NCBI GenBank assembly: GCA_018268255.1
Contig: JAFDWX010000001.1
Coordinates: forward strand, 186,001-250,000
Reading direction: 5' to 3'
Length of the DNA stretch: 64,000 nt
Source: Armatimonadota bacterium
Lineage (GTDB): Bacteria; Armatimonadota; Fimbriimonadia; Fimbriimonadales; Fimbriimonadaceae
The translations under genes were made by a program, and so were the position numbers. Below are positions 10,455-18,575 of the stretch, piece after piece; position 1 is the first letter of the stretch, and each line of letters starts with the position of its first letter. The notes under the pieces are model-generated. The model did not search any database. It saw only the letters and a list, made by a program, of their open reading frames with translations, and had not been told where the DNA came from.

Positions 10455-11869
10455 GTTTTCGACTGCGTCTCGTCTTTCTTAGCGCATTGAGCGTCATGAT
10501 CGCCGTTTTGCTCACGGCCTACATCATCAGCAGCCAAACTCGCAAGCTCTTCTTCCAGTCGATTGACCGAGAGTTAGAAGGCCGAGCCATGGGCCTTCGA
10601 GACCGCCCTCCCGGTGCTCCTGGTCCTGAAATGAGCCCGGACCGCAGACCACCGAACCGCGGCCCCGATCCGTTTGGCCGACCAGTGGAGCTTACTGCGA
10701 ATGGAATGCCTGAAGCCGCCGGGGAAACGCCTTACGATCTGGAGGCGCTCAAACTCGCCAGGCCAGAAGGACCCGTTTTCACTACCGTCACAATCGACGA
10801 CACGGACGTACGAGTGGTGACCGTCATGCGGCGGGAGCCCGGGCAGGGAGCTGGCTACATCCAGGTCGGCCACAACATGGCCGACTTCAAACGACTCGGG
10901 GAGACCCAATCTCGGATTCTCATTCTCCTTGTGCCGGCGACCATTCTTGCCGCGGGAATAGCTGGATGGCTTTTAGCCGATCGCGCTCTCAAACCGGTTC
11001 AGCAGATTGCGCGAACCGCCGAAAGGGTCACGCATAGCGATCTTGGCGCACGACTCAATGTAAGCGGTCAAGATGAGCTTGCTCAGTTAGCGACTTCTTT
11101 CAACGAAATGCTGGGTCGGTTATCGATTTCCTTTGAGGAACGCGAGAAGTTGGTCCAAGACCTGCAGCTCTCGCTCGAACAGCAGCGCCAGTTTGTCGCC
11201 GATGCATCCCACGAGCTCCGAACGCCCTTGGCGCGGCTTATGCTCACCACAAGTTCTGCGCTCCAGGGTGAATCAGATTCCACCGAACTCCGGAAAGCCC
11301 TAGAGATTGCCGATCAGGCTGGGACAAGCATGTCGAAGCTCGTCGATCAACTGCTCACGCTCGCACGGGCTGAAGCTCCCACGGCAGGGGAGTTGCCGTC
11401 GAGTTCTTTGCACAGTGCGATCCATGAGGCTCTGGATACGGTGCAAGCCACTCCCGGCGCACCGATCGAAGCAAGCTTCTCGGATGACATTTCGGTTTTG
11501 GGCGATGTCCACGATCTTTCTCGAGTGGTCATCAACCTGCTGACCAACGCTCGGCGCTACACGTCAGAAGACGGATGCATCAAGCTGCTTCAAGATTCAT
11601 CAGGCGAATGGGCCCGCGTTGTCGTCGCCGATAATGGTTGCGGAATCTCTCCCGAACATCTTGAAAAACTGGGCCAACGGTTCTATCGTGTGGATGCGTC
11701 TCGGGCCAGAAAAGAAGGCGGCACCGGATTGGGTCTGGCGATTTGCCGAGCCATATTGAATCGGGTCGGGGGCCGACTGGAGATCCAAAGCGAACTCGGT
11801 ACCGGTACCCGTGTGAGCATTTTTGTACCTGTAGACAAGAATTTTTCCGAAAATCCCGTTTCCAAATAA
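10451..11869 (+). CDS. Membrane sensor histidine kinase
   Basis: The 472-aa product has a first transmembrane helix at about residues 7-28 (LVFLSALSVMIAVLLTAYII) and a periplasmic part of some 125 residues that is rich in Pro and Arg. A second helix follows at about 157-176 (ILILLVPATILAAGIAGWLL), then a HAMP linker. The HisKA domain carries the phosphoacceptor His in ADASHELRTPLARL, and the ATPase domain has NLLTNARRYT (N box), VVADNGCGIS (G1) and GGTGLGLAICR (G2). It overlaps the response regulator gene by four bases. The proline- and arginine-rich periplasmic region may sense envelope stress or a metal, but nothing shows which signal. Confidence 0.95.
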   Translation: MSFRLRLVFLSALSVMIAVLLTAYIISSQTRKLFFQSIDRELEGRAMGLRDRPPGAPGPEMSPDRRPPNRGPDPFGRPVELTANGMPEAAGETPYDLEALKLARPEGPVFTTVTIDDTDVRVVTVMRREPGQGAGYIQVGHNMADFKRLGETQSRILILLVPATILAAGIAGWLLADRALKPVQQIARTAERVTHSDLGARLNVSGQDELAQLATSFNEMLGRLSISFEEREKLVQDLQLSLEQQRQFVADASHELRTPLARLMLTTSSALQGESDSTELRKALEIADQAGTSMSKLVDQLLTLARAEAPTAGELPSSSLHSAIHEALDTVQATPGAPIEASFSDDISVLGDVHDLSRVVINLLTNARRYTSEDGCIKLLQDSSGEWARVVVADNGCGISPEHLEKLGQRFYRVDASRARKEGGTGLGLAICRAILNRVGGRLEIQSELGTGTRVSIFVPVDKNFSENPVSK

Positions 11870-11937
11870 CTTCCAAATATCTCCCGACTAAAGTAACCAA
11901 TGTAAGAGGAACAGAACCTCGAACACGGAGAACGAAA

Positions 11938-12693
11938 ATGGCACGAAACACCTCTAACTCAATTCGATGGCTGGCCCTGTTGGGAGTTGCGACCCTGGGG
12001 ACCGTGACCTTCACTCAGGCGTTCGCAGCAGATAAGAACGCCACCGGTAACTCGACCACGGTGTGTATGGTGCAACCCGGAGGCGAACGCGGCGGCCCTG
12101 GCGGCCCTGGTGGCCCGGGAGGACCTGGCGGTCCCGGCGAGCATGGCCCTCGACGCGAGATGGGTGGACCGCAGCTCTTACTTCATCCCGATGTCGTCGA
12201 AGAGCTGAAGCTCACCGATGCCCAGTTGGACGCAGTCAAGAACTTCTTGGACAGCCATCGACCTCAAGGCGGTCCTCCGAAGGAGGGTGATCGCGAGAAG
12301 ATGCGCGCCGAGTTCGAAACGTTCTTGTCGCAGACCCTGAATGCGAACCAGAACAAGCGGTTCCACCAAATCGACCTTCAGGTCGCAGGTCCGAAAGGGT
12401 TGATGCGACCGGACGTGGTCAAAGCTCTTGGTTTGACACAAGCTCAACTGGAGAAGATTGATCAGATCTTGAAGGACAATCGACCAGGGCGTGGACAGGG
12501 CGGCGATCCCGAAAAGGATCGGCAGGCTGTGATGGACAAGGTTATCGCGGTGCTCTCCGCTGACCAGAAGGCAGCGTTTGGAGCCATGCTGGGTGAGCCG
12601 TTCAAGCTAACCCCGCCTCCGGGAGGACCAGGCGGGCCTGGCGGACCCGGTGGCCCCGGTGGACCGGGCGGGCCTGGTGGCGGAGGCTTCTAG
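11938..12693 (+). CDS. Secreted Spy/CpxP-like (LTxxQ-type) protein with Gly-Gly-Pro tracts at both ends
   Basis: Starting at the ATG at 11938, which follows the kinase gene by 68 bases, the 251-aa product has a signal peptide (about residues 1-30, cleaved after TFTQAFA). It then has a Gly-Gly-Pro tract, two similar helical modules and a second Gly-Gly-Pro tract at the C-terminus. The modules carry LKLTDAQLDAVKNFLD and LGLTQAQLEKIDQILK, which resemble the LTxxQ helices of Spy/CpxP periplasmic proteins. The frame is open further upstream, inside the kinase gene, but those residues are not signal-like. Position suggests it is regulated by the kinase pair. A strong terminator follows. Confidence 0.8.
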   Translation: MARNTSNSIRWLALLGVATLGTVTFTQAFAADKNATGNSTTVCMVQPGGERGGPGGPGGPGGPGGPGEHGPRREMGGPQLLLHPDVVEELKLTDAQLDAVKNFLDSHRPQGGPPKEGDREKMRAEFETFLSQTLNANQNKRFHQIDLQVAGPKGLMRPDVVKALGLTQAQLEKIDQILKDNRPGRGQGGDPEKDRQAVMDKVIAVLSADQKAAFGAMLGEPFKLTPPPGGPGGPGGPGGPGGPGGPGGGGF

Positions 12694-12884: not shown

Positions 12885-14546
12885 ATGTCAATGACGACCC
12901 CGATCCGTTCTCCACGAGGCACTCAATTGCAGTGCAAAGGCTGGCACCAGGAAGCCGCACTCCGCATGCTCATGAACAACCTCGATCCCGAAGTGGCCGA
13001 AGACCCAAGCCACTTGATTGTGTACGGCGGGAGAGGTAAGGCGGCTCGAAACTGGCAAGCATTTGAGGCCATTTGCCATGCGTTGAGGAACCTGGAAAAC
13101 GACGAGACGCTCCTCATCCAATCCGGAAAACCCGTCGGCATTTTCAAAACGCACCCGGAATCGCCTCGTGTGCTCATCGCCAACTCGAATCTGGTCGGCA
13201 AGTGGTCTCACTGGCAAGAGTTCGACCGACTTGAGCAGCTCGGGCTCATGATGTACGGCCAGATGACTGCTGGCTCGTGGATTTACATTGGCAGCCAGGG
13301 CATTGTCCAAGGCACCTATGAAACCTTCGCCGCATGCGCTGATCGACACTTTGGCGGGACGCTGGCGGGACGCTGGATTTTGAGCGGCGGCATGGGGGGC
13401 ATGGGCGGTGCCCAACCTCTCGCAGCAACCCTGGCGGGGGCAGCGTTTCTGGGTATCGACGTCGACCCGAACCGTATCGAAAGGCGCCTCAAGAATGGTT
13501 ACTGCGACCGCATGACCCACCATCTGGACGAGGCACTTGAGTGGATTCAAGAGGCAACGGCAGCGAAACGAGCCGAAAGCATTGGTCTGGTCGGCAATTG
13601 CGCCGACGTATTGCCAGAATTGGTTCGCCGCAACGTGGTGCCAGATATCCTCACGGACCAAACGTCTGCCCACGACCCGATCGGAGGCTACGTTCCGCAC
13701 GGAATGTCTTTGAGCGATGCGCTCGTCCTTCGCGAAGAGAGCCCTCACGACTACCGGTCCCACAGCATCCACTCAATGGCGGTGCACGTCCAAGCGATGC
13801 TCGATCTTAAGAAGTTGGGAGCCGTGACCTTCGATTACGGTAACAACATCCGGGCTTTTGCCACTGAGGGCGGCGTTTCCGGAGCGTATGACATCAAAGG
13901 GTTTGTTCCTGAGTACATCCGTCCCCTGTTCTGCGAAGGAAAGGGGCCCTTTCGCTGGGCGGCTCTCTCCGGCGACCCTGCAGACATCCATCGAACCGAT
14001 GCCCTTGCGTGCGAGCTTTTCCCAGAGAATGAGACGCTGCAGCGCTGGATGTCTCTTGCGCCGAAGAAAATCCAGTTTCAGGGCCTTCCGTCTCGAATCT
14101 GTTGGCTTGGGTACGGCGAGCGAGCCAAGATGGGTCTTGCAATCAACGACCTTGTGAAAACTGGCCAGGTCTCGGCTCCGATCGTCATCGGGCGAGACCA
14201 TTTGGATTGCGGATCGGTGGCCTCTCCCAATCGGGAGACGGAGTCGATGAGGGACACAAGCGACGCCGTTGCCGACTGGCCGCTGTTGAACGCAATGGTC
14301 AACACAGCAGCTGGAGCCTCTTGGGTTTCTCTGCATAACGGTGGAGGCGTGGGCATTGGATACTCGCAACACGCAGGAATGGTCGTGGTAGCCGATGGCA
14401 CTGACTCGACCGCGCGACGACTAGAGCGCGTTCTGACCAGCGACCCGGGAATGGGAATCATTCGGCACGTGGATGCGGGTTACCCAGAAGCGGAAGAGTT
14501 CGCGAGGAACCATGGAGTTCGCCTGCCGATGCACGAGGCCGAGTAA
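12885..14546 (+). CDS. hutU: Urocanate hydratase (urocanase)
   Basis: This enzyme converts urocanate to imidazolonepropionate in histidine breakdown and uses a tightly bound NAD+. The 553-aa length is standard. Signature segments are [11 protein letters not shown] near the N-terminus, [20 protein letters not shown], the NAD-binding [22 protein letters not shown] and the active-site stretch [18 protein letters not shown], which contains the catalytic Cys. Its TAA overlaps the ATG of the next gene (TAATG), so the three hut genes form one translationally coupled operon. Histidine ammonia-lyase, which makes urocanate, is not in the window. Confidence 0.97.
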
Positions 14547-15439
14547 TGCACGAAGATCCAGGCTGGCCCCGCGCAGGACACTGGCTTTCGCAAGGAAGCG
14601 CAGACCCGAATGTGACCATTTTGGGGGTGCCATTGAATCACTCGGTCACCCCGGGCCGGTGCGATCTTGCTCCAGACGCGATTCGTTCGGCTCTGTTGCG
14701 CTATTCGACGTGGGACTACCGAACCAGCCGGGATCTCCGCGACCTGCCGGTCAGCGACTCAGGCGATGTCAGCCTCTTGGGAGATATCGCTATCCAACAT
14801 CGTCAAATCCGGAAACAAGTGGCAGAACTGCACGGCCGGACGGTTCTGCTCGGGGGCGACAACGGCATTACTTGGCCCGCATTGATGGGCATGGCCGATC
14901 GGCTGAATCTGCCTCTGGCTTCGATAGGGCTCATCACCCTCGATGCCCATCTGGACCTTCGGACGCTCGAGACCGGTCCCATGAACGGCAATCCTGTCCG
15001 AGGCTTGCTGAGCGAGGGCTTGCCAGGAACGAATATCGTCCAAATCGGAATCCAGTCGTTCGCCAACTCGCCCGAGTATCAGGCTATCGCAACTGAGTCC
15101 GGGATTACGCAATACCTTGTCGAGGACGTGGAGGCCCACGGAATCGAATCGGTGATGGTCGAATCGATTGCGAGGCTCGCCCATTGCGATGCAATCTATT
15201 TCGACTTAGATCTGGATGTGATGGACCGCGCATTCGCTCCCGGCTGCCCAGGATCGCGACCAGGAGGAATCACACCCAGCCAAGCTCGCAAAGCGGCGCG
15301 CATCGCCGGATGCGAGCCGAAAGTTCAAGCCATGGATTTGGTTGAGCTCGATCCCACCATTGACCAAAATGACACCACCGCGCTTGCTGGGGCTGCGTGT
15401 CTGCTTGAGTTCTGCGCTGGCACCCTGCAAACACTATGA
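14546..15439 (+). CDS. hutG: Ureohydrolase (arginase-family), probable formimidoylglutamase
   Basis: The 297-aa product is of the arginase/agmatinase fold. Metal-binding segments seen are LLGGDNGITWPAL, ITLDAHLDLR, and FDLDLDVMDRAFAPGCPG, with the later acidic Glu in LVELDPTID. The first motif reads GGDN, where most ureohydrolases have GGDH with a manganese-binding His, so metal binding at that site must differ. Its place between hutU and hutI makes formimidoylglutamate the likely substrate; this is inferred from context and not from specificity residues. It overlaps hutU by one base and hutI by four. Confidence 0.82.
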   Translation: MHEDPGWPRAGHWLSQGSADPNVTILGVPLNHSVTPGRCDLAPDAIRSALLRYSTWDYRTSRDLRDLPVSDSGDVSLLGDIAIQHRQIRKQVAELHGRTVLLGGDNGITWPALMGMADRLNLPLASIGLITLDAHLDLRTLETGPMNGNPVRGLLSEGLPGTNIVQIGIQSFANSPEYQAIATESGITQYLVEDVEAHGIESVMVESIARLAHCDAIYFDLDLDVMDRAFAPGCPGSRPGGITPSQARKAARIAGCEPKVQAMDLVELDPTIDQNDTTALAGAACLLEFCAGTLQTL

Positions 15440-16683
15440 GTTCGCTCGCCATCCTCAACATCGGCCAATTGGTCTCCCTGATCGGCCCCAATCGAGGCCG
15501 GGTGGGACAGGAAATGTCCGACCTGGGCCTGATTTATGGAGCAGGAATCCTTGTTCAGGATGATCGGATTCGTGCAGTCGGTCCAAGCGAAGACATTGCC
15601 CTGGAAATGCCCGCCGATGCGGTCATCATCGACGCTGGTGGACGGGTGGTTACCCCCGGGTTTGTCGACGCTCACACGCACCTGGTCTTCGGCGGGAACC
15701 GATGCCAAGAGTTCGAACTTCGATCCCAAGGCGCGACGTACCAAGAGATCTCTTCAAAGGGAGGCGGGATCCATTCCAGCGTTGAAGCGACACGGTCCGT
15801 CGACGAGGAAAGTCTATTGGCAAGGTCTCAGAAGTGGGCTCACAAACTCATCCAAATGGGCACAACCACGGCGGAAATCAAATCCGGTTATGGCTTGAAC
15901 GCAGATTCCGAATTCAAGATGCTCCGGGTCATTCGCGATCTCAGACGCACCACTCCTTTGCGAACGGTGGGGACCCTCTTGGCGGCTCATGCGATTCCAA
16001 AAGATCAAGATAAAGATGATTATCTAAAACATATCACTACCCATATGATCCCGGAGGCATCCTGCTCTGGGCTTGCTCGATATGTCGATATTTTCGTCGA
16101 AGAGAACTACTATTCAGCTGAGTGCGCGCGAAAGATCGCTGGAGCTGCGAAGAAACACGGTCTTGGCCTCCGCATGCATGTCGACCAGATGCGTGATGGG
16201 CACGGTGCCGCCTTGGCCGCTGAGCTAGGTGCCATCACGGCGGACCACTTAGAGCAGACAAGCCCAGCTGGGATCGGAGCCATGAAGGCAGCCAACACGA
16301 TCCCGGTACTGCTACCGACTTCAGTTTTTGGGTTGAGGCACGAGAAATATCCCGTGGCTCGCGCCATGATCGACGCCGGCCTGCCTGTCGTGCTGGCAAC
16401 CGATTTCAATCCAGGGTCTTCCCCATCGCCATCGATGCCCTTTGCGATGAGCCTTGCGATGCTCAACATGGGGATGTCGGCCGCGGAATGCCTCACCGCC
16501 GCGACCATCAACGCCGCTGCCTCATTGGAGTTGGCCCACGAACTCGGGTCGCTGGAACCTGGAAAGGTCGCCGACATCGTGATCCACGAGTGGGAGGACT
16601 ATCGCGAAATCCCCTACTGGATCGCCACACCGGGAGTTCGCACGACCATTTGTCGTGGACAAAAATTTGACAAAGTTTCCTGA
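15436..16683 (+). CDS. hutI: Imidazolonepropionase
   Basis: A cytoplasmic amidohydrolase that opens the imidazolone ring to give formimidoylglutamate. The 415-aa product has DAHTHLVFGGNR (metal-binding His pair with the characteristic Phe-Gly-Gly-Asn-Arg), then KSGYGLN, HVDQMRDGHGAALAAELGA, ADHLEQTS and the metal-ligand Asp in LATDFNPGSSPSPSMP. All are family signatures. The ATG overlaps the stop of the ureohydrolase gene (ATGA). No terminator with a T-tract is evident before the riboswitch that follows, so some read-through into 16902 is possible. Confidence 0.96.
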   Translation: MSSLAILNIGQLVSLIGPNRGRVGQEMSDLGLIYGAGILVQDDRIRAVGPSEDIALEMPADAVIIDAGGRVVTPGFVDAHTHLVFGGNRCQEFELRSQGATYQEISSKGGGIHSSVEATRSVDEESLLARSQKWAHKLIQMGTTTAEIKSGYGLNADSEFKMLRVIRDLRRTTPLRTVGTLLAAHAIPKDQDKDDYLKHITTHMIPEASCSGLARYVDIFVEENYYSAECARKIAGAAKKHGLGLRMHVDQMRDGHGAALAAELGAITADHLEQTSPAGIGAMKAANTIPVLLPTSVFGLRHEKYPVARAMIDAGLPVVLATDFNPGSSPSPSMPFAMSLAMLNMGMSAAECLTAATINAAASLELAHELGSLEPGKVADIVIHEWEDYREIPYWIATPGVRTTICRGQKFDKVS

Positions 16684-16724
16684 GAACGAACAGGCCGCAA
16701 AGTTCTGGGCGTCTCTATCTATAG

Positions 16725-16856
16725 TCGAATCCGACCATTCGGTTGGAGCGGGGGACCCGATCTTTGGGGCGTAGCGCTTAGCGCAGGATACTTTCGGTCC
16801 TAGCCCGTCAGCTAACTCCGTAGACACATCGAAAGAGGCTTCATGGTCGGAATCAC
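16725..16856 (+). promoter_or_regulatory. c-di-AMP riboswitch (ydaO/yuaA class)
   Basis: The conserved blocks of the ydaO/yuaA aptamer are all present in order. They are AGCGGGGGACCC (16747-16758), GGGGCGTA (16766-16773), a variable hairpin GCGC-TTA-GCGC (16774-16784), a second arm AGGA/TCCT (16785-16801), AGCCCGTCAGCTAACTCCGT (16802-16821) and GAAAGAGG (16831-16838). The closing stem is nine perfect pairs, TCCGACCAT (16730-16738) with ATGGTCGGA (16843-16851). It matches what I recall of the Bacillus ydaO aptamer almost block by block. In known cases c-di-AMP binding lowers expression. No intrinsic terminator follows, so control may be at translation. It precedes the genes at 16902 and 17267. 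Confidence 0.92.
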
Positions 16857-16901
16857 TCGGCCAATAGTCCTCGCGACATCAGAACCAGGAGGTTACGTAT
16901 C

Positions 16902-17243
16902 GTGTTGACGGAAGATAAATTTTTGAAGAACTGCCAAACCATCCGCGAGCAGGAGGCACCACCGATTCGCAAGGCACGGGAATTTTTGGCTCTTTCCCGC
17001 AAGATGCGCGGTTTGGGAACCCATCTGATGGATCTCGGGTTTCGGTCCCATCGCCAGCACCAGGATCGTCAAAAGCGGCGGTTTTGGGCTGCCGCCGCCA
17101 ACTTCTTTGGGTTCGCCAAGACGGCTCGGGAGGAAGCCCAGGCTGTTTTGAACGGAGCCCCAGCAAAACTCTCGTTCGGATACTCACCAAGGCCCTATGC
17201 TGATCCAGGCTGGGAACCCAACGCTAACGCGAGTGATCGCTAA
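16902..17243 (+). CDS. Unknown 113-aa protein behind the c-di-AMP riboswitch
   Basis: The GTG start has an ideal AGGAGG (16887-16892) nine bases upstream. The product is basic and helical, with a Lys/Arg/His-rich stretch at about residues 45-60 (RSHRQHQDRQKRRFW) followed by AAAANFFGFAKTAREEA. It ends in a Pro-rich tail (SYSPRPYADPGW-like, about 93-106). There is no signal peptide or long hydrophobic segment, so it is probably cytoplasmic. I do not recognise the family; it is not one of the potassium, osmolyte or cell-wall products usually behind this riboswitch. It is followed after 23 bases by the second gene of the unit. Confidence 0.75.
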   Translation: MLTEDKFLKNCQTIREQEAPPIRKAREFLALSRKMRGLGTHLMDLGFRSHRQHQDRQKRRFWAAAANFFGFAKTAREEAQAVLNGAPAKLSFGYSPRPYADPGWEPNANASDR

Positions 17244-17266
17244 CCAAGAAAAGCAGGAGGATTGCA

Positions 17267-17590
17267 ATGTCTGAAAACATGGAAGCTTGGAGATCGATGG
17301 ATGGTTCCGACGGATTTGTCTGTAAGCCGTTCATCCACATCATATTTCAACGAGGGCCGGTTCACGATCACGGCATCAATGGATGCCGAATCGAAGATGT
17401 GATTGAGGTTCTCCAAAACCGCCTGTTGGACCACCAGGGCCGAGAACTGGCTTGCGAGGAAAATGCGCAGGCTCTCTACCATTTGGATCTTGCCAGAGAA
17501 GCCCTTCTGCTCCGCCATCGTCGACGTGAAGACCAAGGCGTGCTGAATCAGCCGGAGCGGCACGTTAGCGGTGAAGGCGTCCCAGCTTAA
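17267..17590 (+). CDS. Small protein resembling the Acb2/Tad1-type hairpin family of phage signal sponges
   Basis: The ATG has AGGAGG five to six bases upstream, as strong as that of the preceding gene. The 107-aa product has a short strand (FIHIIFQRGPV, residues 22-32), a Gly-Xaa-Asn-Gly turn and a helix (NGCRIEDVIEVLQNRLLDHQ). A second helix pair reads ACEENAQALYHLDLAREALL and then LRHRRREDQGV. The pattern (F-Q-x-G-P, G-x-N-G, E-D-V-L, Q, A-C-x-E-N-A, A-L-x-x-L, R-x-x-x-R-x-x-x-G-V) matches what I remember of small phage proteins now named Acb2/Tad1-domain. Family members bind cyclic nucleotides or gcADPR isomers. The match is from memory; the ligand, if any, is unknown. Confidence 0.6.
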   Translation: MSENMEAWRSMDGSDGFVCKPFIHIIFQRGPVHDHGINGCRIEDVIEVLQNRLLDHQGRELACEENAQALYHLDLAREALLLRHRRREDQGVLNQPERHVSGEGVPA

Positions 17591-17642
17591 CTCCCTAACA
17601 TCCCAACAATCGCCTCGTTCTGGAATTCCAGGGCGGGGCTCT

Positions 17643-18575
17643 TTAGTGCGCGACAGCCATCCGGGTGATATGGGTCCCCTCGGACGAAGGATCCAGAATC
17701 CAGTATCGCGACTTGAGACCAGCCGCAGCAAATGCCGCATTCATGCTCCTGCCGATTCGGTCATAGCCGTCGCGAGCAAAGGCGATCACACCTGGACCAG
17801 CACCGCTCAGCGAAACGCTCACGGCTCCCGCTTCGAGCGCCCCCTTCTTAGCCTCAAGGGCTCCGGGAATGGCAGGAAGGCGATAGGGTTCGTGGATTTT
17901 GTCGTTCATTGATCGCGCCAACATCGCATCATCGCCCATTCGTAGAGCTTCGGCGACCAACATGGCTCGGCCGATGTTGAAGATGGAATCCGACTTCGAG
18001 TAGGAGTTGGGCAGGGCGGCACGCGCCTGGGTCGTCAGATAGGCGTACTCCGGCACGCAGACCACCGTTTTTATGGGGACATACGGAATTCGTTGGGTGA
18101 GGACCGTGTTGCCATCTGGAACGACAATCACAAATCCCCCAAGGAGGGCCGGGGCAACATTATCGCCGTGGCCTTCGATCTCCACAGACCGCTGAAGGAT
18201 CTGCACTCGATCCAAATCGGCAGGGTCGTTTTCGAGTACGGCCTGCGACAATGCTTGGCCGAAAATGACACCCGCTAGAGTCGCCGTGGAGCTGGATCCC
18301 AAGCCGCTTGCGGCGGGGACGGTGTTGTGACAGATGATGCGTGCTCCCCTAGGGGGTTCCAGCCCAAGTCTGGAGCACTCTTCCAACAGGGTGTGTGCGA
18401 CAAGATTGCTCGAGTCGCACGCGAGGACACCTTCACCCTCACCATGAGTCTCGACCCGAATATCGTCGCCGCCGATGTGAAGTTCGAATGTGTTCCACAA
18501 GTCCAGAGCCAGACCCATGCAATCGAATCCGGGGCCCAAATTAGCAGTGGTTGCAGGGATGCGAACTCTGATCAT
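17643..18575 (-). CDS. thrB: Homoserine kinase
   Basis: A GHMP-family kinase that phosphorylates homoserine for threonine synthesis. The 310-aa product begins MIRVRIPATTANLGPGFD, the classic ThrB start. It has the ATP-binding motif VPAASGLGSSSTA (about residues 88-100) and the C-terminal SVSLSGAGPGVIAFA of motif III. It lies directly after thrC with a gap of four bases, so the two form an operon. Length and motifs are normal. The homoserine dehydrogenase gene is not in this window. Confidence 0.96.
   Translation of the reverse strand: MIRVRIPATTANLGPGFDCMGLALDLWNTFELHIGGDDIRVETHGEGEGVLACDSSNLVAHTLLEECSRLGLEPPRGARIICHNTVPAASGLGSSSTATLAGVIFGQALSQAVLENDPADLDRVQILQRSVEIEGHGDNVAPALLGGFVIVVPDGNTVLTQRIPYVPIKTVVCVPEYAYLTTQARAALPNSYSKSDSIFNIGRAMLVAEALRMGDDAMLARSMNDKIHEPYRLPAIPGALEAKKGALEAGAVSVSLSGAGPGVIAFARDGYDRIGRSMNAAFAAAGLKSRYWILDPSSEGTHITRMAVAH

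Follow-up and report, generated by a model that had tools for sequence, protein, structure and literature searches.

The 113-aa open reading frame (ORF) studied here is situated in a 64,000-nucleotide stretch of DNA, which was analysed as a whole and is referred to as the window, and lies between a c-di-AMP riboswitch aptamer and a second small ORF. The locus contains the following features:

16713..16842, + strand: RF00379 aptamer (ydaO/yuaA leader), a c-di-AMP riboswitch (cmscan, 69.4 bits, E 5e-14)
16843..16901, + strand: linker of 59 nt from the aptamer to the start codon, with a Shine-Dalgarno sequence, AGGAGG, at 16887-16892
16902..17243, + strand: 113-aa ORF with a GTG start, coding for a small basic three-helix protein of what we call family A (ORF list, family profile, AlphaFold2)
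17255..17260, + strand: Shine-Dalgarno sequence AGGAGG of the second gene (sequence)
17267..17590, + strand: 107-aa ORF, coding for a chromosomal homologue of Tad1, of the cyclic-nucleotide sponge family (PDB, PHROG and Foldseek matches)
17612..17639, + strand: terminator-like stem-loop 3' of the second gene (pattern scan, 12 pairs, 8 GC)

The score of the aptamer in the window exceeds the RF00379 gathering score of 38, and the match covers model positions 1-134. An earlier note on this DNA had described the 113-aa gene as the first gene behind a c-di-AMP riboswitch and as equipped with a strong ribosome binding site. Both descriptions are correct: the aptamer ends 59 nt upstream of the gene, and the AGGAGG is located nine bases 5' of the GTG start. 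The gap between the 113-aa gene and the 107-aa gene is 23 nt. Pattern scans of the linker did not detect a terminator-like site, a scan of 16400-17700 did not detect a promoter-like site, and the leader RNA did not fold better than shuffles; the terminator pattern scan gave two such sites in the scanned stretch as compared with 1.4 expected in shuffles. The nearest upstream frame stops at 16683, i.e. 29 nt 5' of the aptamer. It is the last of three tandem ORFs (12885-16683) that resemble a hut operon and that we take to be hutU, hutG and hutI. Because of this short distance, the riboswitch may belong to a longer transcript. Further upstream, an ORF at 11743-12693 has two stretches with long Gly-Gly-Pro repeats, one of them forming its C-terminal end.

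A search with the single protein in 61 genomes identified two clear relatives, in G010 (1.6e-11) and G001 (1.5e-4), both directly behind RF00379. Weaker matches in G027 and G008 are family-A members without a riboswitch that were later recognised by the family profile; by contrast, the matches L005 (in G046) and L007 (on contig C6 of the window's genome, G000) were read as chance frames. An iterated search was made among 875 ORFs, including 461 reverse-strand controls, that lie downstream of the first 76 riboswitch places; it collected 25 members, with no reverse-strand ORF below E 0.4. In the same 875 ORFs, a hold-out profile built from six members of another taxonomic family, without the window, recovered the window's ORF with E 5e-6 over residues 1-86, while the best control ORF was at 0.05. 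Moreover, dN was well under dS in close family-A pairs (0.16/1.21 and 0.04/0.37). Thus, the relatives in other genomes, the hold-out match and the low dN together argue that the frame is more than chance, and a spurious ORF is ruled out on the same grounds. A reading of the ORF as a phage gene was also rejected, as no phage record matches the protein. In total, we conclude that the 113-aa ORF is a real gene.

It is not the orphan that it was taken to be. The family-A profile detected 38 copies in 31 of the 113 genomes of the class, and no copy in the 178 genomes from the rest of the phylum (291 genomes in all). Named genomes were scanned separately with a pattern, and seven of the 11 loci obtained have an aptamer; the records are titled Armatimonadetes, Fimbriimonadales, Fimbriimonadaceae, Fimbriimonas or Chthonomonas, with 'Methanoregulaceae' as the one exception. 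That record, of a Methanoregulaceae archaeon (JADZEW010000035.1), carries a family-A locus (L221) near-identical to a Fimbriimonadaceae record, so that the bin is probably mislabelled. We conclude that family A is undescribed and evolves fast, and that its members are small three-helix proteins, most of them basic.

The 113-aa protein has a computed pI of 10.3, and the His/Arg/Lys-rich middle (HRQHQDRQKRR) and the Pro-rich end noted earlier are both present; the tail carries LSFGYSPRPYADPGWEP. In the AlphaFold2 model, made from 12 sequences, a short N-terminal helix (residues 4-16) is followed by two long antiparallel helices (21-51 and 55-84), with pLDDT >90 across most of the helices, and by a tail that is disordered from residue 85. 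The basic stretch, for which the earlier note had suggested RNA, DNA or an anionic messenger as possible ligands, is located at and around the turn that joins helices 2 and 3. It is specific to one sub-family; basicity itself is common in family A, and 40 of 48 proteins, counted as relatives or neighbours at the riboswitch slot, have a pI of ~9 or more, the remaining eight being below 9. A flexible tail is present in some family-A members. The tail motif LxFGYxP..W was found again in diverged members, a recurrence that hints at a docking motif, and a loose version of the pattern matches 8/48 proteins examined.

Searches in Pfam, NCBIfam, PHROGs and PADLOC assigned the 113-aa protein to no family, and other members of family A gave only weak matches in family databases, each from a single member. 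Among solved structures, the model matched common helical shapes only (best Foldseek E 1.9, best VIA Z 9.2); neither the solved folds nor the known families searched provided a clue to function. The model resembles the protomer of the Acb2 (Vs.4) sponge as described in the available text of PMC12043709, in that both have a short N-helix and two long antiparallel helices; however, this shape is generic and common, there is no sequence link to Acb2 in PHROGs or phage records, and Vs.4 is absent among the structure matches listed for the model.

RF00379 was detected at 137 places, one of them below the cut-off, in 84 of the 113 class genomes, and a c-di-AMP synthase domain (DAC, PF02457) is present in 108/113, the window's genome included. 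At 33/38 places, among them the window, family A follows RF00379 on the same strand. The distance from the aptamer is 22-109 nt for first copies and 400-543 nt for further copies. Because the 17 seeds of the family profile had been chosen behind riboswitches, the fair figure for this linkage is that of the non-seed matches, 16/21. RF00379 is present in all 31 family-A genomes as compared with 84/113 overall. Homologues thus do not always follow RF00379: near the other five of the 38 places, no RF00379 was found within 1.5 kb even at E 0.1. From these positions a role of the 113-aa protein related to c-di-AMP is likely, as had been suggested, and c-di-AMP control of family A is well supported by position.

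A census of gene products covered 111 of the 137 riboswitch places. Family A was the commonest product found (32 sites), ahead of hisB (17), the Tad1 homologue (16) and family B (9); an MFS transporter and/or a small membrane protein followed at 14 sites, five of them with family A, and 22 sites had no labelled gene. The hisB-like genes (L069, L070, L072, L095, L097, L099, L102 and others) were named from sequence and are presumably hisB. An MFS_1 transporter and a small membrane protein without a Pfam match recur behind RF00379 at L077, L088, L114, L125, L128 and L130. Family B is another small helical-looking protein that is first behind RF00379 (L084, L091, L131-L134, L139, L140); it occurs at 15 places in 12/291 genomes, has an FAxPxW motif and a tail that ends like EYPFMEYSS, and HHalign did not find homology between it and family A (p 0.07). 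The second RF00379 site of the window's genome (L076, G000:C2:231226-231364) precedes an ORF that, named from sequence, we take to be sigma-factor-like.

Described products of c-di-AMP riboswitches include K+ and amino-acid transporters as well as cell-wall and osmotic-shock proteins, according to the available text of PMC7266159. The locus in the window is like an RF00379 regulon in having a full aptamer at the usual place before the gene and a c-di-AMP synthase domain in the same genome. It is unlike the described regulons in that the aptamer precedes a small helical protein from a new family, with a Tad1 homologue as the next gene; no homologue of the 113-aa protein matches a usual product of this riboswitch class, in agreement with the earlier note. 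The literature searched contained no paper on c-di-AMP riboswitches in Armatimonadetes or on c-di-AMP in Fimbriimonas.

The best known c-di-AMP riboswitches are OFF with c-di-AMP. A perfect terminator stem followed by a T run between aptamer and start was found in none of 21 linkers. An anti-Shine-Dalgarno match of at least 5 nt upstream in the linker was present at 19/33 loci, as compared with a mean of 7.2 and a maximum of 15 in 300 shuffles; this count omits 10 too-short linkers, one linker without a Shine-Dalgarno sequence, L118 and some first ORFs, and the shuffles are lenient because related loci are counted singly. The absence of terminators together with this excess suggests that the riboswitch controls family A at the level of translation. 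The linker in the window has an anti-Shine-Dalgarno match of 4 nt only, which is not above chance, and for this locus translational control and the direction of the switch are what we infer.

The 107-aa protein matches Tad1 in the PDB (8kbb, E 1.5e-7 with the single sequence and 2e-14 with the family profile; 7uav, 1.6e-9), PHROG 2428 (E 2e-17) and phage records including SBSphiJ7 Tad1 (tblastn, 6e-4). Foldseek ranks 1-20 for its model are all Tad1, with TM 0.40-0.59 by query length and, for CmTad1 and CbTad1, a probability of 0.98-1.00. It shares with Tad1 the core FQxG, GxNG, ED, RLxxFQ and CxEN and a C-terminal helical hairpin (helices 42-57 and 64-89 in the model). Unlike viral Tad1, it is chromosomal and conserved in the class, has an altered TKLEEALMWL stretch and, in the alignment, a shorter N-terminal part, where model confidence is low, and belongs to a separate clade. 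The chromosomal homologue was found at 78 places in 67/113 class genomes, but not in the 178 genomes from elsewhere in the phylum. In a tree of 124 columns with 28 of the 78 chromosomal places and 66 viral rows, all 28 chromosomal rows were on one side of a branch and all viral rows, including SBSphiJ7 Tad1, on the opposite side (support 100/99); the window's copy falls into a group with the copies from G013 and G012, both of them likewise behind RF00379. When viral contigs were scanned with the chromosomal family, no relative could be confirmed, and there is no chromosomal Tad1 among the literature matches listed. Judged from the class distribution and the separate clade, the 107-aa gene does not appear to be phage- or prophage-encoded, and reading it as a chromosomal, presumably domesticated, Tad1 is, along with a small-protein family positioned for c-di-AMP control, the sound part of the interpretation.

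Sixteen of the 78 Tad1-like genes are located behind RF00379. Two follow it directly, at 47 and 49 nt, whereas one small ORF or more separates the other 14 from it. This small ORF matches the family-A profile in G000 and G088, while in G019 the Tad1-like gene comes after both a B-type match and a family-A match; eight genomes from a single genus have another conserved small protein at this position. The idea that homologues always lie beside the 107-aa gene is thus not supported, the three genomes G000, G088 and G019 being the only ones in which family A is found there. Because pairing is confined to so few genomes, the family A/Tad1 pair is not the rule of the family. The two families occur together in 20 genomes, which is not beyond chance (p 0.53).

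Altogether, the explanation that we favour, and consider probable on the whole, is that the 113-aa gene is a member of a class-specific family under a c-di-AMP aptamer and the first gene of a two-gene unit with Tad1, and, more tentatively, that it functions as an adaptor. In detail, c-di-AMP would act through the upstream aptamer to set the output of the 113-aa protein, with control at the ribosome-binding site more likely than control through a terminator, and the chromosomal Tad1 would be the second gene on what may be a single transcript. The basic helical face of the protein would hold an anionic partner, RNA or membrane, and its aromatic tail would dock to a protein. For this last part, i.e. 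that the protein is an adaptor for stress output, we make a tentative proposal that is itself rather less likely than otherwise.

A doubtful alternative is that the two genes form a buffer for c-di-AMP in which the Tad1 homologue would bind c-di-AMP (or a nucleotide related to it) and have the 113-aa protein as its partner, reader or effector, with both under control of the aptamer. The homology and fold of the 107-aa protein fit with this idea, as do the 16 Tad1-like genes behind RF00379 and the small ORF in front of 14 of these. Moreover, the review PMC12043709, in its available text, describes Tad1 as binding cyclic dinucleotides and trinucleotides, c-di-AMP weakly, and according to that of PMC12657218, CbTad1 and ColiTad1 trigger the Panoptes defence system, which operates through 2',3'-c-di-AMP. 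However, 62 of the 78 Tad1-like genes have no riboswitch, the two directly behind RF00379 have no small ORF, most family-A genes have no Tad1 neighbour, and the co-occurrence of the two families is at chance level. Similarly, the shorter N-terminal part and the altered TKLEEALMWL motif of the Tad1-like protein speak against a buffer, and HHalign did not link the small ORFs of genus g30 to family A (p 0.01, probability 4%). Because its basis is homology and gene order, the joint reading is attractive yet unproven.

It is unlikely that family A has an accessory role in transport or envelope functions within the c-di-AMP regulon, for instance a regulator of the co-located MFS transporter and small membrane protein. 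At five of the 32 family-A sites, family A does lie between RF00379 and one or both of these genes, which follow RF00379 without family A at nine further sites, the MFS_1 assignment being confirmed by Pfam; also, the copy on G008:C6, which is not linked to a riboswitch, precedes an MFS-like and a membrane-protein-like ORF. Against this, neither most family-A sites nor the window have such a gene behind family A. Even less probable is that the small ORF mainly serves as a leader cistron, linking the riboswitch to translation of the gene that follows, and that its product matters little. While this would account for small ORFs of unrelated or very diverged sequence before the Tad1-like gene at 14/16 riboswitch loci, family A has no labelled gene behind it at 20 sites, five copies have no riboswitch, dN is below dS in the family, and the 107-aa gene has its own Shine-Dalgarno sequence. 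Finally, that the locus is anti-defence cargo of a prophage, with a Tad1-like gene that has kept its ability to block CBASS or Thoeris signals and a 113-aa gene that was carried in with it, would agree with the homology to Tad1, a phage anti-defence protein in the available text of PMC12043709, but is very improbable given the spread of the homologue over the class, its separation from all viral rows in the tree, the lack of a phage record for the 113-aa protein and the outcome of the viral contig scan.

Under the favoured explanation, a class-specific gene under c-di-AMP control with Tad1 as its second gene, family A is a new protein family added to the c-di-AMP regulon. More speculatively, and with considerable doubt, the class may have domesticated a phage Tad1, and in a sub-group Tad1 may have been put under a c-di-AMP riboswitch along with a partner that is small, basic and helical, giving a self-adjusting buffer or receptor whose supply would be set by the messenger that it binds. 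The Tad1 sponge homologue emerges as a conserved chromosomal gene, with some copies controlled by c-di-AMP. Should the 107-aa protein bind c-di-AMP, the host would have a sponge or receptor of its own that either descends from a phage anti-defence protein or gave rise to one.
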